Of a stretch of 64,000 nucleotides of DNA, positions 4,351 through 46,574 are shown piece after piece. The first letter of the stretch is position 1; each line of letters begins with the position of its first letter. The notes under the pieces were generated by a model. The model saw nothing but the letters and a program-made list of their open reading frames with translations, searched no databases and was not told the DNA's origin. This DNA comes from Methylacidiphilum caldifontis (GTDB taxonomy: Bacteria > Verrucomicrobiota > Verrucomicrobiia > Methylacidiphilales > Methylacidiphilaceae). The position numbers and the translations under genes are program-made. The stretch lies in assembly GCF_017310505.1 (NCBI RefSeq), contig NZ_CP065957.1, forward strand, positions 434,001 through 498,000, written 5' to 3'.

Positions 4351-5238
4351 ATGAATAACAAGAAGTCGGTTTTGAATTTAACGCTTTTCTTTTTAATTAT
4401 CTTTTTTTTGTTAAATGTTCAACTTGATGCTACAGATCCCCTTACAGCCGATAATAGTGTAGCTGTGGAAGATCCTAATCCCAAAGCTAAAGAGCAGCTT
4501 TCAAAATCTTTAAATAATAACATTAATACCCAAGATTTTCATTACCATAGCGGGGTTTATGCAGCCCTCTATGGTGGAGGTGGATATCTCGATTCAGACC
4601 GGTGGAATTATACCGACTCCCGGGGTAATATTGGCATGGGCAATTATGGCGGTTCATGGGGAGGAATAGGAGGACTAAAAGCGGGTTATCAATTCAAGGG
4701 GTGGAAAATCGGTCATACCCCATATAGAATTACTGAAGCAGTTGAATTTGATGGGTTTTATGCGGGTTATTCCAACCCGATGAACGGATTTATTGGCACT
4801 TTTACTGGCCCCGTTTTCAATGGGAAAAGTGTAAGCCCCGATATGCAACTCAATGTAGGGATCATGACGATCAACGATATAACCAAGCTTATTACCCCTT
4901 ATCGTTTCGCCCCTTACATTGGATTTGGAGTGGGAGGTGGCATCGTCACGGCTTCTAATATTACAGGACTAGCTCCTGCTGGGGGATTTGACACCACCCA
5001 TTCGAGTACAACCGGAGCCTTCGTTCTTGCAGAAATCATGGGAGCTGAGTATTACATTACTGATCATTTAAGTGTTTTTATTGAAGGAAAGTTCATCTAT
5101 TTCGATAGTTCCGTTTCAATCTTTAGGAACTTGGCTCATTTTAATGTGATGACCAATTCTGGAGCAACAGCTGCGGTTTCTTTAAGCAACTTTTTCCAAT
5201 ACATTGGAGTTGCGGGTGTCAAGTATGTCTTCTGGTAA
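4351..5238 (+). CDS. Secreted outer-membrane beta-barrel protein, function unknown
   Basis: I do not recognise a named family. A typical signal peptide occupies about residues 1-27 (hydrophobic core LTLFFLIIFFLLNV). The mature protein alternates short polar and aromatic/glycine strands (GVYAALYGGGGYL, GGIGGLKAGYQF, APYIGFGVGGGIV) and ends in GVKYVFW, the terminal aromatic residue that outer-membrane barrels use for BAM recognition. About eight to ten strands would fit, similar in size to OmpW/OmpA-like porins. It lies 78 bp after the efflux adaptor; a 6-bp inverted repeat (TTTGAC at 4293, GTCAAA at 4315) sits in that gap. It may belong to the efflux unit or have its own promoter. Confidence 0.7.
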   Translation: MNNKKSVLNLTLFFLIIFFLLNVQLDATDPLTADNSVAVEDPNPKAKEQLSKSLNNNINTQDFHYHSGVYAALYGGGGYLDSDRWNYTDSRGNIGMGNYGGSWGGIGGLKAGYQFKGWKIGHTPYRITEAVEFDGFYAGYSNPMNGFIGTFTGPVFNGKSVSPDMQLNVGIMTINDITKLITPYRFAPYIGFGVGGGIVTASNITGLAPAGGFDTTHSSTTGAFVLAEIMGAEYYITDHLSVFIEGKFIYFDSSVSIFRNLAHFNVMTNSGATAAVSLSNFFQYIGVAGVKYVFW

Positions 5239-5246
5239 GAATAAAG

Positions 5247-6503
5247 TTATTGAGCAGCAGCCGGCTGCGATATTTTTTCTATATACTCCAACCAGTGAAG
5301 AACAGGGACTGGAGAAAGCTGTTGCAACTGCAACCGACACCCTACGTTTGATGTAAGGATAACGGCCGGTTTCCCGCCGAGGATATTTTTCATTTTCAAT
5401 TCAAGAATTCTCTGGGAGAGTTCTTTTTGCATGACCGCATACATTCCTGCTGCACCACAGCACATATGGCTATCTGGAATAGAGGTAAGTTTGATATCGA
5501 GTCTGCTTAAAAAAGCTTCTACCCTCCCTTTTTCTTTCAGTCCATGTTGTGCTGTACAGGGACTGTGATAAGCTACAGGCTCAAGTCTTGGAGCATTTAA
5601 AAGGGAATGGATATCTTCTTTTTCTAAAATCTCAACAGGATCGAAAGTCATACGCGCTATTTGCAAAGCCTTATGGTTATATTGCTTGTCATCTTTAAGT
5701 ATATCTCCATACTCCTTGATCATTTGACAACAGGCTGATGAACAAACAATAATGCCTCCCATACCCTTTTTAAGATGTGTAATCCACACATCGATATTTT
5801 TTTTCATTTGAGAAAGCGCTTTTTTCCTATTGGGTAAATGATAAGCTAGGGCTCCACAACAACCTTCCTCGGCTATGTCTATAAGCTCGATACCAAGTCT
5901 CCTAAAAAGACGGCGAGCAGAGTTTAATACCGAAGGATAAATTATTGGTTCAACACATCCTTTAAACAAGATCATTTGTCTTGGATTGCCTCCCCAATCT
6001 TTCCTTTCCCAATCCCTTCTAAGGATTGTATCTTCTTTTGAAATTTGGGGCAGCTTTCGGCGTAAAATATCGGGTAAAAGAGCTCTTATGGAACTTCCGA
6101 ACTTAAAAAGATAATAAAATTTCTTTCTATCCGTAATAAAATGAAGAAAAAAGTTCAAAAGTAGCCTTTCTAAAAAGGACCGCTGGACAGACTGTTCAAT
6201 AATCTCCTTGCCTATAATCGCCAGTTTTCCAAACTGTACAGAGGATGGACAGCTCGTTTCACAACCTTGACATAAAAGGCATCGATCGAGATGTAGCTTG
6301 ACTTTTTCTGCTGAGGTTTTGTCTTCCAAAAGGGATTTTATTAAATAAATCCTACCTCGAGGCCCATCCAGTTCGTCTCCCAAAAGCTGGTAGGTAGGGC
6401 AGCTCGCATTACAATAACCACAATGAACGCAAGCCCTGATCAGTTCTCTGGCTTTAATAGCCAAAGACTCTTTTTTAAACTTCAAACCCAATTGCGTATC
6501 CAT
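5247..6503 (-). CDS. glcF: Glycolate oxidase iron-sulfur subunit GlcF
   Basis: Electron-transfer subunit of the membrane-associated glycolate dehydrogenase, which oxidises glycolate to glyoxylate. Two classic [4Fe-4S] ferredoxin motifs are visible (C25-x2-C28-x2-C31-x3-C35-P and C76-x2-C79-x2-C82-x3-C86-P), followed by two CCG-type cysteine-rich domains (GCCGALAYH and MCCGAAGMY) as in GlcF, LutA and heterodisulfide reductase subunits. It is the last gene of a glcD-glcE-glcF run and starts 23 bp after glcE. The order and presence of both FAD subunits decide GlcF over LutA. Confidence 0.94.
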   Translation of the reverse strand: MDTQLGLKFKKESLAIKARELIRACVHCGYCNASCPTYQLLGDELDGPRGRIYLIKSLLEDKTSAEKVKLHLDRCLLCQGCETSCPSSVQFGKLAIIGKEIIEQSVQRSFLERLLLNFFLHFITDRKKFYYLFKFGSSIRALLPDILRRKLPQISKEDTILRRDWERKDWGGNPRQMILFKGCVEPIIYPSVLNSARRLFRRLGIELIDIAEEGCCGALAYHLPNRKKALSQMKKNIDVWITHLKKGMGGIIVCSSACCQMIKEYGDILKDDKQYNHKALQIARMTFDPVEILEKEDIHSLLNAPRLEPVAYHSPCTAQHGLKEKGRVEAFLSRLDIKLTSIPDSHMCCGAAGMYAVMQKELSQRILELKMKNILGGKPAVILTSNVGCRLQLQQLSPVPVLHWLEYIEKISQPAAAQ

Positions 6504-6526
6504 AAAAAAGCTATCGCTTTCAATAA

Positions 6527-7612
6527 TTAAAACTCTTTGTAAATCCTTTTAGGATTAAAAAGCCCGAAAGGATCAAAAGCTTCTTTAAGTCTCTTCTGCA
6601 AGTTCATGAGCGCTGGTGGCAAAACTGAAGCCAATGTTTCGTCTCGATCATGAAGCCAACCATACCCACCCGCTTGAGTTGCCCAAGAAAATAGGTCCTC
6701 ATCGGCCTTTGCGTTTTTTCCCTTCCACCATCGTTGCGATCCTCCCCAATCATAAAACCATTCTCCATCCCAAGGAGGAATAGGTGTGGATTGAGGAAGA
6801 ACAAATCTCCATATCCGATCTGAGTCGATAAAGAAAGAATGAGTTCTTTCCTTTACCGAAAACCAAAATTGATCATGATTATCTAAAATTTCACCTCCAA
6901 TGACTTTCAGTGCACTTTTAACCGATTTTTCATAGCCTGAAAATCGGATAAAGATTTTACCCCTATGAAAGCACCCTGCAGAAAGGGGAAAACACCGAGT
7001 CGAAAGGGTAGAAATAAAATCTAAGGCCTCTTCGTCATTTTTTTCCAGAACAACTGTCATCGAACATTCTGGCAAAGGAACTACCTTAAAGGTCGCTTCA
7101 AGAATAATTCCTAGTGTTCCTTGAGCTCCAGCCATGAGCCTGAAAAGATCAAAACCCGCAACATTTTTAATAACCTTACTCCCAAAACTGAGCAATTCTC
7201 CTAATCCATTGATAATTTTAACTTTCAGAAGATAATCTTTGAGTGCTCCCCTATAAGGTCTAGAGGGACCAGAAAGTCCGCAAGCAACGCTACCTCCAAC
7301 TGTTGCTTGCATTCCAAAATGAGGGGGTTCAAAGGGAAGATATTGTCCATGTTGTTTCAAAATCTCTTCTAGGTAGGATAGAGAAGTTCCATTTTTAACA
7401 GTTATAAAAAGTTCATCGGGTTCGTACTCAACAACTCCTTTGTTAAAAGACACATCGAGGGGCTCAGCTTCCACTTTTCTACCCAATCTTTCTTTTGTAG
7501 ATCCACCCACAATTTTGATTTTCTTTTTTAAGCTGATTAACTCCCGGGTTTTCTCAATGATCTGTATGGTGTTTACATCCAAGCCCGTGATTGGAGAACT
7601 CACCTTATTCAT
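6527..7612 (-). CDS. glcE: Glycolate oxidase FAD-binding subunit GlcE
   Basis: Second flavoprotein-type subunit of glycolate dehydrogenase. It has a short FAD_binding_4 (VAO-fold) domain: KIVGGSTKERLG near residues 34-45, then QATVGGSVACGLSGPSRPYR and the GSKVIKNVAGFDLFRLMAGA segment diagnostic for GlcE. It lacks the full C-terminal oxidase domain of GlcD, giving 361 aa. Four bases separate it from glcD, so the two are translationally linked. Confidence 0.92.
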   Translation of the reverse strand: MNKVSSPITGLDVNTIQIIEKTRELISLKKKIKIVGGSTKERLGRKVEAEPLDVSFNKGVVEYEPDELFITVKNGTSLSYLEEILKQHGQYLPFEPPHFGMQATVGGSVACGLSGPSRPYRGALKDYLLKVKIINGLGELLSFGSKVIKNVAGFDLFRLMAGAQGTLGIILEATFKVVPLPECSMTVVLEKNDEEALDFISTLSTRCFPLSAGCFHRGKIFIRFSGYEKSVKSALKVIGGEILDNHDQFWFSVKERTHSFFIDSDRIWRFVLPQSTPIPPWDGEWFYDWGGSQRWWKGKNAKADEDLFSWATQAGGYGWLHDRDETLASVLPPALMNLQKRLKEAFDPFGLFNPKRIYKEF

Positions 7613-38601: not shown

Positions 38602-40383
38602 TTAGTGGGCTGAGTTTGCGATCTTGTACTTGATCTGATGGGCAAGTTGAGGATTAAGGTTTTCAATTTTAGTTAAATCTTTATCCCTCTCATTGAAATC
38701 ATGGAGTTGGTTTTCTAGGAAAACGAGATTAATCAGTGGCCTAATATCACCTGGAAGATTTTCCTCAGCCCTGTGCCATGCATCAATCGCTTCAGGGAAC
38801 AGGTGAAGTTCTTGACAAAGACAGCCTAAATTAAACCAACCCATCCCGAAACGGGGATCTATCTGGATCGTTTTTTTATACGCATCCAGGGCAACCAATC
38901 TTTCACCCACCTTCTGGCTTAATACCCCAAAATTGAACCACCCATCTCGATCCTTGGGATTGAGTTGGACGACTCGCAAAAAACAAGCCCGAGCAAACTT
39001 TTCCTGTTCCATTTTCAATAACACCAGCCCCAAGTTATACCATATAGAAGGATTCTTGGGCTCAAGAAGGCTCAACTCTGTATAAGCCTCCGAGGCTTGT
39101 TCCCATTTAGCTAGAGCCAAGTAAGATTCGGCTATCCCTACCCACGCACGTATAGATTGAGGGTTTAACCTTGCCGCTTTCATAAAAGCGCCGACTGACT
39201 TATCCCAATTTTGCATTTTCTGGAAAATTTCTCCCATAAGCAGCCAGGCACTGACATGCCTAGGTCGAGATTCTACATAGCTTTTGAGTTCTTCAACGGC
39301 TCTTTCGAATTGACCGATTTGATTTAAACAGATCCCTAGAGGATAAGCGATCTCCTTGGAAAGAGCTCCATCTTCCCTTGCCTTAAGTAAGGCGTCTATC
39401 GCCGGGTTCCATTCTTTACGGGAGATCATGATCTGGGCAAACAAAATAGGATAATGATAATCTGTTTCATTTAAGGAAGTTGCTTTCCTAATCGCAAAAT
39501 CCGCTTTATCCAACAGAGAAATTCTTAAATAGTTTGCTGCAGCCGACGCCCAGGCAACGTCAGATTTAGGAAACACTTGGATGAGTAGATCAGCATTCTT
39601 TTCGATATCGCTTCTCTGAACACTTTGCCACAAATTGATCCAATAAGGTGAAGAAGCAAGCCTAGGATCCTGTTCTCCCTTCTGCTTGATCGCATCCAGG
39701 TTTTCCTTCCAAAACGCATATTCCATGAGTCTATCCGCTTTATCCAAGATTTCTAACGGAGCACTTAATAACCTTGCTCTAACCAACTCCTTTTGAGGGT
39801 CAATTCCATCCACTATGCCAATCGTTTGATCTTTTTCGTTGATTACTGGACTGCCTAGTAATACTCCAGCTGTCTCCCCAGAAAAATACAGATGTTGACT
39901 ATCCGTTTCCGGCAGTTCTTTAAGTTTGTATTTACCTATTTTCCTTGGTTCCTCAGGTGTTGGAAGAGGAATGAAAAACTCAAGCCCTGCTCCTTGAGGC
40001 CAACTATCCTTTGAAACGATTCTCAAGGCAGAAAAAGATTTGCCTTCCACCTGGACCAAAAGCAAATCTTTTTCAGGTTCTCTTAATATCCAACCCAAGT
40101 ACTGAACCGGCCGAAAATCCCATCGCTTTGTTTCTTTAACCGTTTTCCCATAGAACACATTGGATAAGGTTAAAACCTTGCCGTCTGCCGATAAGATTAT
40201 TCCTCTAATCCATTGTGAAGAGCCATTAGAATCGACGACAGAAAAATCAACAATTCTTGAGGTCCAAAAATCGGCATCGAAACTCGATTCTTCGGCTCTT
40301 AATAAAGAAAAGCAATAAACTAACGGAGTTAAATAAAAAAGTAAAAAGAGAAACCAATCTTTAAACAGCCAAAAAAGTTTCAC
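38602..40383 (-). CDS. TPR protein with inactive trypsin-like domain
   Basis: Exported or anchored protein (hydrophobic N-terminus, about residues 8-27; GTG start). Residues about 38-200 resemble a DegP-type trypsin fold: GIILSADGKVLTLSNVF corresponds to GSGVIIDxxGYIVTNxHV, with the His replaced; DLLLVQVEG matches the conserved Asp strand; GVLLGSPVINEKDQTIGIVDG corresponds to GNSGGPLxNxxGxVIGI, with the catalytic Ser lost. From about 265 to 580 there are at least eight TPR motifs (for example DRDGWFNFGVLSQKVGERL). A non-catalytic scaffold in the periplasm is likely. Confidence 0.78.
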   Translation of the reverse strand: MKLFWLFKDWFLFLLFYLTPLVYCFSLLRAEESSFDADFWTSRIVDFSVVDSNGSSQWIRGIILSADGKVLTLSNVFYGKTVKETKRWDFRPVQYLGWILREPEKDLLLVQVEGKSFSALRIVSKDSWPQGAGLEFFIPLPTPEEPRKIGKYKLKELPETDSQHLYFSGETAGVLLGSPVINEKDQTIGIVDGIDPQKELVRARLLSAPLEILDKADRLMEYAFWKENLDAIKQKGEQDPRLASSPYWINLWQSVQRSDIEKNADLLIQVFPKSDVAWASAAANYLRISLLDKADFAIRKATSLNETDYHYPILFAQIMISRKEWNPAIDALLKAREDGALSKEIAYPLGICLNQIGQFERAVEELKSYVESRPRHVSAWLLMGEIFQKMQNWDKSVGAFMKAARLNPQSIRAWVGIAESYLALAKWEQASEAYTELSLLEPKNPSIWYNLGLVLLKMEQEKFARACFLRVVQLNPKDRDGWFNFGVLSQKVGERLVALDAYKKTIQIDPRFGMGWFNLGCLCQELHLFPEAIDAWHRAEENLPGDIRPLINLVFLENQLHDFNERDKDLTKIENLNPQLAHQIKYKIANSAH

Positions 40384-40560
40384 AATAAGACTATTCGTTT
40401 TTACAAAGAAAAGCAGGCAGCAACTATATACAAAAAAAAGCTTAAAAAATAAAGGATAACTTATTGATTAAATTAAAAGAATAAATGCAACGAAATCAGT
40501 CTATGGTTAACCATAAAAAAGGATTTCTTATGAAAATTGGAAAGGATGAATCTATACAGA

Positions 40561-41118
40561 TTACTTATGATGGGCAGTTAACAAGGGACCAACTGCACGA
40601 ACAATTTTGTCTAAGGCTGGGCGTATAGCATTTAGGTAATCTTCGTTAAAATCTCGGTAACCGTCATAAAGCCAAACATGAGCTCTCTGGATATTTCCAA
40701 AAGAACCCAAGGGTATTCCTTTTGATTCCTTCGAAGGATAATATTCGGCAAATAGACGTACAACAATGTCTGTAGCGGTATTGGTTCCTATAAAAGAATA
40801 CCTCCATCTGCCCAAATCGACCCGAACAATGGGAATCCCTTCCTGAGCTTGGCTCATCTTATCAATCCTTTTTACTTCCAAGGAAGGATAAGCTCTTTTG
40901 AAAGCAGAAATCGCTTCTTTATAGAAGAAATCTCTTTGGGAAAGATAATCATACCTGGACAAAACGAATTCCGGCGGCCTGTTAAACCATGCTTCAGGAA
41001 CAGCTAAAATGTATATTTTGTCATGTGACGGTAAGGAAACATCCTTTTTAGCGCTAAATGCTAAATTTAAAAAAGAAATAAGAAATAAAAGGGAAAAGAA
41101 GAAAACTTTTCTTTTCAC
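40561..41118 (-). CDS. Exported protein, unknown
   Basis: Not recognised. GTG start and clear signal peptide (KVFFFSLLFLISFLNLAFSA, about residues 4-23). The mature part is about 160 aa, mixed alpha/beta, with IYILAVPEAWFNRPPEFV, VRVDLGRWRYSFIGTNTATD and a C-terminal helix. A lipobox is absent, so it is probably a soluble periplasmic protein. Lies 51 bp after the OmpA-like gene and likely belongs to the same transcript. Confidence 0.65.
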   Translation of the reverse strand: MKRKVFFFSLLFLISFLNLAFSAKKDVSLPSHDKIYILAVPEAWFNRPPEFVLSRYDYLSQRDFFYKEAISAFKRAYPSLEVKRIDKMSQAQEGIPIVRVDLGRWRYSFIGTNTATDIVVRLFAEYYPSKESKGIPLGSFGNIQRAHVWLYDGYRDFNEDYLNAIRPALDKIVRAVGPLLTAHHK

Positions 41119-41169: not shown

Positions 41170-42195
41170 TCATTCATCGACTAGGGCTCGAATTACTATT
41201 TCTACTCTACGGTTCCTAGCCTGCTCTTCGATTGAACCTCGAGGATTAACAACAGGATGACTTTTCCCATAACCGGTCGCATGAAAGTTATACATGCCCC
41301 GAGGAAGATGAGCTTCTAACCATTGCTGAACGGCAAAAGCTCTCTGTTCACTCAGTTGCAAATTATACATCTCATCGCCGAAAGTATCCGTATGCCCTCC
41401 AATTTCAACATCAGCCCGGTTGTATTTTTTTAATATTTCGAGCACCTGGAAAAGGAGAGGTTCAGCAGTTGGTTTAATGTTGGCTGAATCAAAGTCAAAA
41501 AGGATATCACTAGGAAGACGCAAAACGACAGGTTGTGGAACCCTGGGATCAAAATTAGCTGCTGCTTTAAATTGGGTTTGAATATCATCTACTCCAGGAA
41601 TGCCTTCTCCCCCACTCGTTCCGGTAGGATGGGTTCCCGCTTGGCCAGGTGCACTCGCTCCAGGGATAGGATCATGACCAAGACCCGAAGGCAGAATATT
41701 GTTCGTATTCGGCACGCCCGGAGAGGAAGGCCCGACGATCATGTGCGAAATCATGGATTGGAGCTGAGACTTAGTATCTTCTTCATAAGGACTAAGTTCA
41801 GTAGGAGGAGTAGGAGACAGTACCGCAACTTCAGGAGCTCCTCCCGGTACCACAGAAGGCATGGGAATCCTCACCGGGTTAGCTTGAGTTACGTCTTGAA
41901 CCAAAGGATTGATGGCTTTGATCTGTTTTGGAGCTTCAAGGGCTGGGATTGGAGTTACCGACGGACTTTTGGTATCAGCCCGAGCCTGAAAAATCGAAGC
42001 AGGTAGCTCAGCTCTTTTTAAATCTAGTCTGCGGTTAAATTTTTTGGCTGTGGAAGGCAAAGAGATGTTTTTGATGCGGATAGGACCAACTGTCACAATA
42101 AAACCCAAATGAAGAAGGATCGAAATGACAATTGCTAGGGTAAGTGTTTTCCGATCCAGAACTATGGAAAGTGAAGGGAAAGGTTCAGTTTTCAT
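41170..42195 (-). CDS. TolA/TonB-anchored OmpA-domain protein
   Basis: Hybrid envelope protein. The N-terminus is cytoplasmic and basic, followed by one membrane helix with S25-x3-H29 (VISILLHLGF), the S-x3-H motif by which TonB and TolA contact ExbBD or TolQR. A proline-rich linker (about residues 75-210: PTPPTELSPYEED and a PGASAPGQAGTHPTG stretch) leads to a C-terminal OmpA/Pal domain (about 228-340) with ILFDFDSANIKP, GGHTDTFGDEMYNLQLSEQR and NRRVEIVI, including the Asp and Arg that bind diaminopimelate. The start codon shares one base with the stop of the TPR gene (TGATG). Confidence 0.82.
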   Translation of the reverse strand: MKTEPFPSLSIVLDRKTLTLAIVISILLHLGFIVTVGPIRIKNISLPSTAKKFNRRLDLKRAELPASIFQARADTKSPSVTPIPALEAPKQIKAINPLVQDVTQANPVRIPMPSVVPGGAPEVAVLSPTPPTELSPYEEDTKSQLQSMISHMIVGPSSPGVPNTNNILPSGLGHDPIPGASAPGQAGTHPTGTSGGEGIPGVDDIQTQFKAAANFDPRVPQPVVLRLPSDILFDFDSANIKPTAEPLLFQVLEILKKYNRADVEIGGHTDTFGDEMYNLQLSEQRAFAVQQWLEAHLPRGMYNFHATGYGKSHPVVNPRGSIEEQARNRRVEIVIRALVDE

Positions 42196-44555
42196 CAAGT
42201 GTCCGGTTTAAATGAAGGATATTTTTCTTTGAGTTTTTTTTCCCAGAAAGCAGCTTGATCACTATCACCCGCCTTTGAAAAAGATAAAATGGCCTTTTGC
42301 ATCGCTCGGGGAGTAATGTGATCATCTTGATAGATCAGGCTTAAGGTTGTATAAGCCTTGGCCGCTTCCTTATAATTTTTTTGAGCAAGATAACTATCTC
42401 CAAGGAGCATGCGAGCTTTCGCATTATTCTCCCCCTCAGGTTCTTTAAGCATGACTTCCTCTAAATTCTTCTGTGCTTGGGCAAATTCTCCCAGGGCAAT
42501 CTGTGTCTCAGCCAATCCCAACAGTACGGGGGAATTATTTGCGGAGTCTGGAGCCGATTTCTGGAACTCAAGGTAATAGTTGTTCGCTTCTTTCCAGTTC
42601 TTAAGTTTGCGATCCGTTTCCGCTAGCAACCATAAACTTGAAACGAAATACTTATCTTGGGGTTTAGCCACCTGAATGACCTTTTTAAAATAAAGAACAG
42701 CGCTATCCCATTTTTCTTTTTTGAGGAGTTGGCAGGCTATCCAGTAATAAAGTTCAGGAGGAATGGGTTCAGCACCACTCTTAAAATTGTCTTCATAGGA
42801 TTGGATATAACCACATACCTTTTCTACATCATCTTGATGATAAGATATCCAGGCGAGCATCAAGGTAGCCGCTAAATAGAGCTTTTCAGGCTCAGTTTCC
42901 CGGGCAATGGAAAAATATTCCTTTGCCTGATCATACTGTTTTTCATCATATTTCTGCTGTCCGACGATCCATGCCGCTATACCCCGGTAAGAAGAACGAG
43001 GGTAATCGGTCAATACTTTCTGCATAGTCTCCGCTGCAAGACTCTTTTCCTTGAGTTCGTAGGCTAAAATGCCAACATGTTCAAGACAGGTCTGTCTTTC
43101 GGGATCCGTTCTCTTCAGAGCTTGCAAAGCTTCTCTCCACCATTTCAAAGCTTCACTCTTTTCCCCAATTTTTTCCAGACAACTCGCAAGGCTCATTTTT
43201 ACTGGGATGAGTTCTTTTGAATGGGGATAGTTTGTCAAAAAACTTTTGTAAAGCGATGCGGCTTCAGTCCATTTTTCAAGTCCATAATAGGCATTAGCCT
43301 TTCCCAAAAGAATGGCTCCTGGTGGAACAAACGCAGAATGCACAGATTCCAGTTTTTCCCAAAGTGGAAGGGCCAAGGCAAACTTTCCAGTCTTGATGAA
43401 GTCTTCGGCTTTTAAGTAAATAAGAGCATAGAGATAGGGGGAAGAAGGATACTGGAGGGAAAATTGACTAATATTGGTTTCCAAGGAGCTCTTATCAAGG
43501 TAATAATTGGCTAATACTTTTTCGTAAGCAGCAAGGTCAACGAGGCTAGATTTAGGATATGTAGTTATAAAAGCATCGAGAAGAGAGGTGGCCTTGGAAT
43601 ATTCTTTCATTTCCAAATAGGCATTGGCAAGATCAATCTGAAGTTTCTCTTTCTGGCTATCGACAAACCCATCATTATGTTTCTCATAAAACTGGATGGC
43701 TTCGTTGTACCTTTTTTGCGATAGATAAAACTGAAACAGCCCGCTGTTAGCCAACTTATTCCATTCCGTGTAAGGAGGACCTCCTGAAGCTTGAGTAAAA
43801 AAAAGCTCGGCCTCTTTAAGTTGACCCGATTTCCAAGCTGCCCAACCGCTCCGAGCTAAAGCTTTCGATCTAACAAAAGGATCCTTTGTTTCGCGCAAGA
43901 CAACCGACCAATACTGCAAGGCCTGTTTCCAGTCAAAAATCGACTCGTAATAGGCTGCAAGGACTCCAGCAGCATCTACTCTAAGATCTGGAGCCTTGTC
44001 AACCAGCTCCCGCAACTTGTAAATCCCTTTTTCTTCTTCCTTTGTTTGGAGCTGACATAAAGCAAGCAAGAAACTAGCAGCCCTTGAGGTTTGAGGATCG
44101 GCTTTTTCGGTGGCGACCTTAAGTGCAACAATCGCTTTGGAAAATTCGCCCAGTTCAGATTCCAATTTTCCTACCCAAAAATAAGCTGTAGGAACAAAAG
44201 CACTAGAGGGATCATTTTGAATAAGCATCTGATAAATTTTTATCGCTTCCTCTTTTCTTCCTATCATCCGATAACAATCAGCCATGGTAAAAAGCGCTTC
44301 CGTTTTTTTGCCTGCAGCTAAAAAGGGCAGAATCTTATACAATATCTTGATCGCTTCCTCGTAGTTGCCCTGCCTATAAAGGGCCACTGCTCTATCTAGC
44401 TCAAGATCAGCTGTGGGGACGATTTCAACCGATTGACTAATCTTTTCTGTACGAGCCAGAAGTAATCTTTCGGCGCTCAAAAAATGGAAAAGCGTAAAAA
44501 CAAAAAATAAACCGGCACCAAATTTTTTGTTCCAGATAAGCTTCCTGAACTTCAT
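42195..44555 (-). CDS. Large periplasmic TPR protein of the ExbBD/OmpA operon
   Basis: 786 aa, signal peptide (about residues 10-29), then tetratricopeptide repeats through most of the chain, for example AVALYRQGNYEEAIKILYKI, FTMADCYRMIGRKEEAIKIY and MLLGDSYLAQKNYKEAAKAY, typical of CpoB/YbgF-like and BamD-like proteins but far longer. Expected to be a protein-protein scaffold in the periplasm. The gene sits between exbD and the TolA/TonB-OmpA hybrid with one-base overlap to the latter, so a role in the same energised envelope complex is likely. Confidence 0.82.
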   Translation of the reverse strand: MKFRKLIWNKKFGAGLFFVFTLFHFLSAERLLLARTEKISQSVEIVPTADLELDRAVALYRQGNYEEAIKILYKILPFLAAGKKTEALFTMADCYRMIGRKEEAIKIYQMLIQNDPSSAFVPTAYFWVGKLESELGEFSKAIVALKVATEKADPQTSRAASFLLALCQLQTKEEEKGIYKLRELVDKAPDLRVDAAGVLAAYYESIFDWKQALQYWSVVLRETKDPFVRSKALARSGWAAWKSGQLKEAELFFTQASGGPPYTEWNKLANSGLFQFYLSQKRYNEAIQFYEKHNDGFVDSQKEKLQIDLANAYLEMKEYSKATSLLDAFITTYPKSSLVDLAAYEKVLANYYLDKSSLETNISQFSLQYPSSPYLYALIYLKAEDFIKTGKFALALPLWEKLESVHSAFVPPGAILLGKANAYYGLEKWTEAASLYKSFLTNYPHSKELIPVKMSLASCLEKIGEKSEALKWWREALQALKRTDPERQTCLEHVGILAYELKEKSLAAETMQKVLTDYPRSSYRGIAAWIVGQQKYDEKQYDQAKEYFSIARETEPEKLYLAATLMLAWISYHQDDVEKVCGYIQSYEDNFKSGAEPIPPELYYWIACQLLKKEKWDSAVLYFKKVIQVAKPQDKYFVSSLWLLAETDRKLKNWKEANNYYLEFQKSAPDSANNSPVLLGLAETQIALGEFAQAQKNLEEVMLKEPEGENNAKARMLLGDSYLAQKNYKEAAKAYTTLSLIYQDDHITPRAMQKAILSFSKAGDSDQAAFWEKKLKEKYPSFKPDT

Positions 44556-44602
44556 TCCTTTTTATTACTAACTATTAAAAACCCAAAATTCATTTTTTTC
44601 CT

Positions 44603-45031
44603 TTAACGGGAAGAAGTCATATCCGGCCGATTCGTCGCAAAGGCTATATTCCAGGCATTGACTCCCCGACAAACATCCAAAACCTTTATGACTTCCTTGT
44701 AGGAAGTCTCTTCATCAGCCCGGATAATAATCGCTTGATCCGGATACTGCTGAATTACACCTTTTATAATTTCTTCGAGTTCTTGTGCCGAAACAACTCT
44801 ATGATTCAAATTGACTTGCCCATCTTTGGTTATGTTTATAATCACTTCTCCAGGTAGCCTCCTTGGCATTTCCCCATTTTTGGCCTTTGGAATTTTTACT
44901 TCAAGATCCGCCTCGTATCGCGCCAAATTCCAGGTTAACAAGAAAAAAGAAAGCAAAAACATGATCACATCGATCATCGGCGCCAGTTGCAAGCCAATCT
45001 GTTCTGTTCCTACCCTTTTCCTAAAATTCAT
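44603..45031 (-). CDS. ExbD/TolR-type proton-channel subunit
   Basis: Inner-membrane motor component. One membrane helix with the essential acidic residue D21 in QLAPMIDVIMFLLSFFLLT, then a periplasmic domain (about residues 50-142) with PGEVIINITKDGQVNLN and AIIIRADEETSYKEVIKVLD, as in TolR and ExbD. 142 aa. It follows exbB by 17 bp. Whether it serves a TonB or a Tol system cannot be settled from this subunit alone; the OmpA-domain neighbour favours Tol. Confidence 0.93.
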   Translation of the reverse strand: MNFRKRVGTEQIGLQLAPMIDVIMFLLSFFLLTWNLARYEADLEVKIPKAKNGEMPRRLPGEVIINITKDGQVNLNHRVVSAQELEEIIKGVIQQYPDQAIIIRADEETSYKEVIKVLDVCRGVNAWNIAFATNRPDMTSSR

Positions 45032-45048
45032 ATGACAATGCTCACCTA

Positions 45049-45834
45049 TTATTCTTCCTTGATTTCGTCGTTATTTTCCTCCTCAAAAGATGAAGAAGCA
45101 ACCGTTTTGAGTTCGGGGGAAGTTTTGTATTTCTTGTTCAAAAGATAAATTTCTTGAACCCATATCACAGACCTTTCTTCAAAAACAGAGATGAGATATT
45201 GGACCCTCCCTCTAAAGAAAGAGTAAAAAAACATGGCCACAATGCCTACAATAAGACCAATTGCTGTTGAAACTAAAGCTTGTGAAACCCCCCCTGCAAG
45301 CAAAAGGGTCCTCATTGGGGAAGGTTCGGCAGCGATCGAGCCAAAAGATCTTAATATACCCACCACAGTCCCAAAAAGACCCAACATGGGTGCAATCACT
45401 CCTGCATCGAGCAAATAAAGAATACGTTGGTTGAGTAATGAAGAATAACCGCTGCCAAAAGCTTCAGCTACAGCAACAACTGACTCCAAATCTGCATCCT
45501 TGTGCTTGGATAAAAAACTAATTACCTCTTTTAAAAGCCGGGCACATCCTTCAGACCTGTTTTTTATGACTTCTGACACCAAAGATATTTCACCTTTCCG
45601 GAGTGCATTTTCTACTCTCCGGTCCAAGTCTTTTGTCCAGACAGCAGAAATACGAATGGAAATAAAATAATAAAAAATCAAAGCCACAACGAGAAAAGAG
45701 ATAAAAAAAAGGGGATAGATTACCCACCCCCCCGATTTAAGGAGGTCAAAGACGGTTATTGGTTTTGTTGTCCCTTCTTCTGCTGCCGCTGCCCAAAAAA
45801 GAAAACCATTATGTATAAAATAAACTAAATTCAT
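45049..45834 (-). CDS. ExbB/TolQ-type proton-channel subunit
   Basis: Three-helix stator protein of the MotA/TolQ/ExbB family. Helix 1 is PLFFISFLVVALIFYYFISI (about residues 37-56); helices 2 and 3 hold GVIAPMLGLFGTVVGILRSF and STAIGLIVGIVAMFFYSFF, the conserved family blocks. ATG at 45834 is preferred to the TTG two codons upstream. 261 aa with a charged C-terminal tail. First gene of a five-gene minus-strand unit (exbB, exbD, TPR, OmpA hybrid, exported protein); the 167-bp AT-rich divergent gap to adk would carry the promoters. Confidence 0.93.
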   Translation of the reverse strand: MNLVYFIHNGFLFWAAAAEEGTTKPITVFDLLKSGGWVIYPLFFISFLVVALIFYYFISIRISAVWTKDLDRRVENALRKGEISLVSEVIKNRSEGCARLLKEVISFLSKHKDADLESVVAVAEAFGSGYSSLLNQRILYLLDAGVIAPMLGLFGTVVGILRSFGSIAAEPSPMRTLLLAGGVSQALVSTAIGLIVGIVAMFFYSFFRGRVQYLISVFEERSVIWVQEIYLLNKKYKTSPELKTVASSSFEEENNDEIKEE

Positions 45835-46001
45835 GATCAAAAATTGGTTTGCCTCTATTTAGATAATTTAAAAAAAAATATGGAGAAAAGTCATGAACTA
45901 TTTCTTTTTAGTTTATTAATTAAAATGCCATTGGCAATCTTGATTGAATATTGAAAAAAACTATTTTTTTTTATATTTCCATTTAAAAAACTAAAAACAC
46001 A

Positions 46002-46574
46002 GTGAAATACAACTCTCTTTTACTCATAGGTGCTCCCGGTTCCGGCAAGGGAACTCAAGGTAAAATTCTTGGAACTATTCCTGGCTTTTTTCATTTTTCT
46101 TCCGGAGATCTTTTTCGTTCAGTCGATACGCAAAGCCTCATCGGGAAAACATTTCTTGAATATTCTTCAAAAGGCTTGCTTGTCCCCGATGAAATCACCG
46201 TTGAACTTTTTAATTCCTATATTGAAAAGATGATTACAGAGAGAAGATTCCGTCCAAAGGTTGATTACCTTGTCCTGGATGGACTTCCTCGAAACGTGAG
46301 GCAATGGCAGATCCTTTCAGACAAGGTAGAAGCCCTTTATGTCTATCATCTTTATTGTTCTGACCGATCTATCCTTGAAGCACGACTCAAGGGAAGAGCC
46401 GCATCAGATCACCGAATGGACGACAATGAAGAAGTGATAAAAAAACGCTTCGAAGTGTATGAAAAAGAAACAAAACCCCTGTTAAATCTTTTTTCTCCAG
46501 AACGTCTTATCGAGATCGACTGTTCTGTGCTTCCCTACCAGGTATTGCGCGAAATATTAAAACCCCTACCCTGA
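46002..46574 (+). CDS. adk: Adenylate kinase
   Basis: Converts AMP + ATP to two ADP. P-loop LIGAPGSGKGTQGKIL at the N-terminus, SSGDLFRSVD (AMP site), LVLDGLPRNVRQWQIL, and GRAASDHRMDDNEEVIKKRF with the second arginine block. 190 aa: a short-lid form with no zinc-binding cysteines. The start is a GTG at 46002 because it places the P-loop at the normal distance; no clear ribosome binding site. The canonical FPR is LPR here, and it sits alone outside the usual ribosomal operon, so a second adenylate kinase elsewhere is possible. Confidence 0.88.
   Translation: MKYNSLLLIGAPGSGKGTQGKILGTIPGFFHFSSGDLFRSVDTQSLIGKTFLEYSSKGLLVPDEITVELFNSYIEKMITERRFRPKVDYLVLDGLPRNVRQWQILSDKVEALYVYHLYCSDRSILEARLKGRAASDHRMDDNEEVIKKRFEVYEKETKPLLNLFSPERLIEIDCSVLPYQVLREILKPLP

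Follow-up and report, generated by a model that had tools for sequence, protein, structure and literature searches.

In diderm bacteria, energy of the inner membrane is carried outward by two textbook routes, Ton and Tol-Pal, and in the flagellar stator the transmembrane helix of MotB is the ion-carrying pore helix. For TonB, His20 has been described as the sole functionally significant side chain of the transmembrane segment (Larsen 2007, cited in PMC12215075), and contacts of this residue have been seen by cryo-EM (PMC12215075). In 2025, transducers tipped with a vWA domain were proposed as a third type of force transducer (PMC12204202). For MotB, a 2006 proposal had put the origin in a fusion of TonB and OmpA genes (PMC1586193). 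Here we describe a locus of Methylacidiphilum caldifontis (class Verrucomicrobiia, order Methylacidiphilales) in which a TonB/TolA-like membrane helix and an OmpA domain are combined in one protein, encoded next to an ExbB-ExbD motor.

Results

The window analyzed is a stretch of 64,000 nucleotides (NZ_CP065957.1, positions 434,001 to 498,000) from a genome of 2.25 Mb assembled in a single contig. The preliminary description of this DNA had proposed an ExbB-ExbD-TPR-OmpA operon including a 786-aa TPR protein, and all four open reading frames on the minus strand, together with their Pfam domains, were confirmed. The first gene, exbB (45049-45834), encodes a MotA/TolQ/ExbB channel subunit of 261 aa when read from the ATG at 45834 (PF01618 MotA_ExbB, 7.8e-23); the frame opens upstream with a TTG at 45840. 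It is followed by exbD (44603-45031; 142 aa; PF02472 ExbD, 4.2e-27), whose pore Asp D21 is invariant in 23 homologues, and by the gene of the TPR protein (42195-44555), which matches many Pfam TPR families and contains tol_pal_ybgF repeats. The last gene (41170-42195) encodes the hybrid protein of 341 aa, composed of a TonB/TolA-like helix (residues ∼15-36), a Pro-rich linker (∼37-200) and an OmpA domain (∼222-341; Pfam OmpA, 5.1e-16). The successive gaps between the four genes are 17, 47 and -1 bases, and the TPR stop codon overlaps the ATG of the hybrid in the sequence TGATG, a sign of translational coupling.

An adenylate kinase gene at 46002-46574 is oriented divergently from exbB, and its position is kept in several families. 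After the hybrid, the region 38602-41118 encodes a 185-aa protein without any family and then a TPR protein with a trypsin-like domain; both were rejected as operon members since they adjoin the hybrid within the genus only. In the whole genome, six ExbB-type genes (operon exbB included), three OmpA-domain genes and several TonB_C matches were identified, and ExbBD-TonB sets are already present.

The N-terminus of the hybrid reads MKTEPFPSLSIVLDRKTLTLAIVISILLHLGFIVTV. Its transmembrane helix (model residues 15-36; 42088-42153, minus strand; from the sequence and an AlphaFold2 model) contains the motif S25-I-L-L-H29 (42109-42123, minus strand), so that the S25-x3-H29 motif of the preliminary description is right with the ATG start and is, moreover, conserved in 39 relatives. 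These come from most genomes of the order as well as from Akkermansiaceae, Chthoniobacteraceae, Verrucomicrobiaceae and others. In the alignment, His29 is found in 39/39 sequences and position 25 is occupied by Ser in 32 and by Ala in 7 of the 39, but of the SHLS motif only the first half is maintained, as Leu(+7) and Ser(+11) vary among the same relatives. The SxxxH motif was not found in the OmpA-like matches retrieved from other phyla, which mostly have signal-like starts. Since all 39 relatives have the His, with Ser or Ala four residues before it, and the motif is absent from these matches, the alignment indicates that SxxxH in the hybrid is not due to chance. OmpA matches from other classes and phyla, with signal-like starts and no SxxxH, were rejected as members of the family. 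The third OmpA-domain protein of the genome (L015:3742-4671; C1, about 1786741-1787670) is apparently membrane-anchored and has a coiled-coil-like stretch but no SxxxH.

Judging from its sequence, the N-terminal helix of the hybrid looks like an uncleaved anchor and not like a cleaved signal peptide. The hybrid has no lipobox, and the His is positioned inside the hydrophobic core of the N-terminal helix in each of the 39 aligned hybrids. In a heuristic comparison, the helix starts at a median of residue 23 in the hybrids versus residues 0-9 in most TolB proteins, and an A-x-A follows it in 4/39 hybrids versus 10/19 TolBs. A profile of the hybrid N-terminus matched one of two vWA transducers at 2.5e-6 and then an in-genome TonB at 0.008; it did not report the TolB of the genome or its other OmpA protein, and Pal only at an E-value of 17. 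After the helix, an alternating segment, FxVKRVxI, is conserved, which does not exactly match the published D-box pattern (PMC10907165) and forms no strand in the AlphaFold2 model.

In this model, the helix (within residues 15-36) and the OmpA domain are confident, and between them runs a disordered, Pro-rich linker, with pLDDT not exceeding 65 in a block that spans residues 41-200. The Pfam OmpA match covers residues 233-330 as numbered from the TTG-start frame, and the peptidoglycan-contact residues D270, N328, R329 and R330 do not vary among the 39 relatives. The nearest solved folds are the peptidoglycan-binding domains of OmpA, OprF, TagL and MotB; 3td5, an OmpA-like domain solved in complex with a DAP stem peptide, is one of them. 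No TonB/TolA C-terminal domain was found in the hybrid, OmpA being its only Pfam domain and its fold matches being OmpA-like.

The TPR protein starts with a signal-like segment and has neither a lipobox nor a transmembrane segment beyond the signal. Its AlphaFold2 model is an all-helical solenoid of ∼40 helices with a mean pLDDT of 89.3, which is predicted to be sited in the periplasm. A fold search with this model returned generic TPR-type solenoids only; among the weak matches was 9hmf, which is a periplasmic scaffold of the flagellar motor in Campylobacter.

The preliminary description had also suggested a search for the four-gene order in related genomes, and the order ExbB-ExbD-TPR-hybrid was indeed found to be kept in three families, that of the window and two others. 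Elsewhere the unit is split in two ways: either ExbB-ExbD-TPR stay together and the hybrid is distant (e.g., L215-L222 and Akkermansia L234), or TPR and hybrid stay together and ExbBD is distant (G013, G026, G033). The hybrid was found in one class only. Among 193 well-assembled genomes of the phylum, hybrid and TPR protein occur in the same 31 genomes of this class, and neither occurs alone in any class genome, at thresholds of at least 150 bits for the hybrid and at least 385 bits for the TPR protein that were chosen after the score gap was seen, and with one hybrid match of the set (G247) that leaves the N-terminus uncovered.

In most genomes of the order that were searched, the best matches to the window-type ExbD scored 145-257 bits and further copies at most 128. 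In a tree of concatenated ExbB and ExbD, the operon motor and the motors of the motor-TPR-vWA loci are united in a single clade that excludes the Tol and Ton paralogues (99.2/100), with support of 95/98 for the vWA side and 75/84 for the OmpA side. Therefore, a known motor-TPR module appears to carry alternative tips. At two loci from other classes of the phylum, the neighbor of homologous ExbB-ExbD-TPR genes is a vWA protein whose helix bears SxxxH, and these loci correspond to the motor-TPR-vWA transducers proposed in 2025 (PMC12204202). No vWA neighbor was recognized at the remaining loci of this kind that were fetched. At one vWA-class motor locus (L235 of G176, 4575-7004), the TPR gene is split by a stop codon or a frameshift.

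A complete tolQ-tolR-tolA-tolB-pal cluster is present elsewhere in the genome of the window (L010:2862-6752; C1, about 1354361-1358251). As the preliminary description observed, the operon itself includes neither TolB nor a separate Pal, but both are encoded in this cluster. Because of the cluster, the absence of tolB and pal from the operon is no evidence of a replacement of Tol-Pal in this genome, and the view that Tol-Pal is missing here was rejected. The same description had held that a separate complete Tol-Pal cluster, together with a cleaved N-terminal helix, would speak against its idea of the hybrid; the cluster was found, but the apparently uncleaved helix lets the idea survive. In the TolA helix of this cluster, the His is present and Val occupies the usual Ser position.

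Across the class, TolB (TIGR02800) was detected in 20/20 listed genomes without the system but in only 9/31 genomes with it, full-length TolB being absent from 22/31. Although Fisher's test gives p = 1.7e-7, this value ignores phylogeny and is dominated by Akkermansia, so that the association is no more than suggestive. Even so, the relatives that lack TolB give a stronger hint of overlap with Tol-Pal than the operon of the window does. A class-specific TolB profile was bimodal: genomes either scored 329 bits or more or gave no match at 1e-25. According to this profile, TolB is absent from G064-G327, genomes of the family Akkermansiaceae (f11), from G005, from G217, and from G122 and G269, all of which possess the hybrid. 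Most TolB-less genomes are thus Akkermansiaceae, and about four lineages of loss were counted by eye. No Pal-like OmpA protein was found in the TolB-less genomes inspected most closely, namely G005, G217 and the Akkermansia genomes G079 and G082; in the latter two, the only OmpA proteins are the hybrid and one long membrane-anchored protein. The second OmpA protein of Akkermansia (L275, L276 and similar) has ∼430 aa, an N-terminal membrane anchor and the end ENRRAEMYLDF, and is conserved in the genus, while that of G005 has 308 aa and is similar in length to the L015:3742-4671 protein. A literature search yielded no usable transposon phenotype of Akkermansia and no census of Tol-Pal.

Discussion

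We propose, with a probability of roughly two in three, that the system is a PMF-driven force transducer that grips the cell wall, i.e., a third ExbBD-driven trans-envelope machine beside Ton and Tol-Pal, which overlaps functionally with the latter. Its parts, their invariant residues, co-occurrence and linkage, and the phylogeny of the motor are features of the sequences themselves, from which we infer how the machine would be assembled, exert force, bind the wall and serve the cell. ExbB5-ExbD2 would be the proton-driven motor with the pore Asp supplied by ExbD, and the hybrid would be the force transducer, its helix docked outside ExbB via His29. The disordered Pro-rich linker of ∼160 residues would span the lower periplasm, and the OmpA domain would hold the diaminopimelate stem peptide of peptidoglycan. 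As the motor cycles, the force would then act on the cell wall itself, which would be pulled, or loaded and released, rather than on an outer-membrane receptor, as with TonB, or on TolB-Pal, as with TolA. The periplasmic TPR solenoid most likely joins the motor or the transducer to a further partner in the envelope, e.g., wall enzymes or an outer-membrane protein. Such a machine would probably serve to keep wall and outer membrane in step through growth and division, a task that overlaps with that of Tol-Pal.

In the preliminary description, a single inner-membrane protein was thought to transmit ExbBD motion straight to peptidoglycan, as MotB does. What remains of this view is a motor-type anchor joined to an OmpA domain, a conserved arrangement with genetic ties to ExbBD and TPR. 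The comparison with MotB does not hold, and a direct MotB reading of the hybrid was rejected, since its helix lacks a pore Asp. Because ExbD carries this residue, the invariant D21, and the helix of the hybrid has none, the hybrid should dock outside ExbB, like TonB and TolA.

Several findings speak against a wall-gripping transducer. The hybrid is not located beside motor genes in many relatives, the second half of SHLS is missing from its helix, and a clear ExbD-binding strand (D-box) was not established in its linker. In addition, the genome of the window keeps Tol-Pal, so that the system is not simply a replacement, and the losses of TolB are clustered in about four independent events.

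The main rival, which we consider unlikely, is that the hybrid is a passive clamp that fixes the ExbBD motor to peptidoglycan like the anchor of a flagellar stator, and that the force is received by the TPR protein, acting as moving part or cargo adaptor. OmpA domains are usually static anchors, no neighbor of the motor is more constant than the TPR protein, which persists in the ExbB-ExbD-TPR triplet where the hybrid is unlinked, and the flagellar scaffold 9hmf is among its weak fold matches. However, the hybrid carries the TonB/TolA docking motif with an invariant His, and in homologous motor-TPR loci of other classes a TonB-like vWA transducer occupies the same place. Moreover, it is not obvious how the TPR protein could hold the motor directly, since it lacks any transmembrane segment apart from its signal.

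It is very unlikely that the motor serves import across the outer membrane and that the hybrid assists TonB-dependent transporters as an accessory transducer. In favor of this reading, duplication is common among ExbBD-TonB systems and several TonB_C matches are present in the genome, but the hybrid lacks the TonB C-terminal domain, no TonB-dependent transporter gene was recognized beside it, and the operon motor is separated in the tree from the Ton motors of a genome that already has its ExbBD-TonB sets. Scarcely probable at all is an incidental adjacency, in which the helix does no more than anchor an ordinary OmpA-like protein in the membrane or serve as its uncleaved signal: a hydrophobic N-terminal segment, lacking the motif, is likewise present in the L015:3742-4671 protein, and in many genomes the hybrid and the motor are unlinked, but the His is invariant within a hydrophobic helix across the class, hybrid and TPR protein co-occur in 31/31 genomes without exception, and the unit splits in two ways with its parts retained.

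If the hybrid acts as a wall-gripping transducer, its relation to Tol-Pal could go further. We tentatively suggest, as a possibility that we do not favor, that the OmpA-tipped ExbBD machine is a functional stand-in for Tol-Pal in much of the class, which pulls on peptidoglycan directly, arose when the tip of a motor-TPR-vWA system was swapped (or the reverse) and allowed the approximately four losses of TolB, some of them together with Pal, including that in Akkermansia. Such a substitute would explain how Akkermansia and its relatives manage without TolB, and pulling on the wall would be separable, in a testable manner, from moving Pal.

Compared with Tol-Pal (TolQRA-TolB-Pal-CpoB), the locus has in common a motor, a TonB/TolA-like helix, an OmpA peptidoglycan-binding domain and a TPR protein. 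However, the operon has no TolB, its OmpA domain sits on the inner-membrane transducer and not on an outer-membrane lipoprotein, and its TPR protein is far longer than CpoB. With ExbBD-TonB it shares the type of motor, the Ser/Ala-x3-His helix and the Pro-rich linker, whereas the C-terminal domain of the hybrid is OmpA instead of TonB_C and no receptor partner was recognized. Close counterparts are the motor-TPR-vWA transducers of PVC bacteria (PMC12204202, 2025), with homologous ExbB-ExbD-TPR genes and a transducer that has an SxxxH helix and a long linker. They differ in having a vWA tip where the present system has a peptidoglycan-binding OmpA tip, and in the pair of TolR-like genes described for the PVC group, in contrast to the single ExbD found here. 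An OmpA-tipped transducer is not mentioned in the accessible part of that paper, and the family is apparently undescribed in the literature searched. The two kinds of locus suggest one motor-TPR module with exchangeable tips, one of which would grip peptidoglycan directly. Like the MotAB/PomAB stators, the system has a motor-associated membrane protein that ends in an OmpA peptidoglycan-binding domain, and MotB structures are among the fold matches of the hybrid, but the pore Asp belongs to MotB's own helix in the stators and to ExbD here. The hybrid thus shares the TonB+OmpA architecture of the 2006 proposal (PMC1586193) but not the place of MotB in the motor, and would represent a living example of the kind of protein once proposed as the ancestor of MotB.
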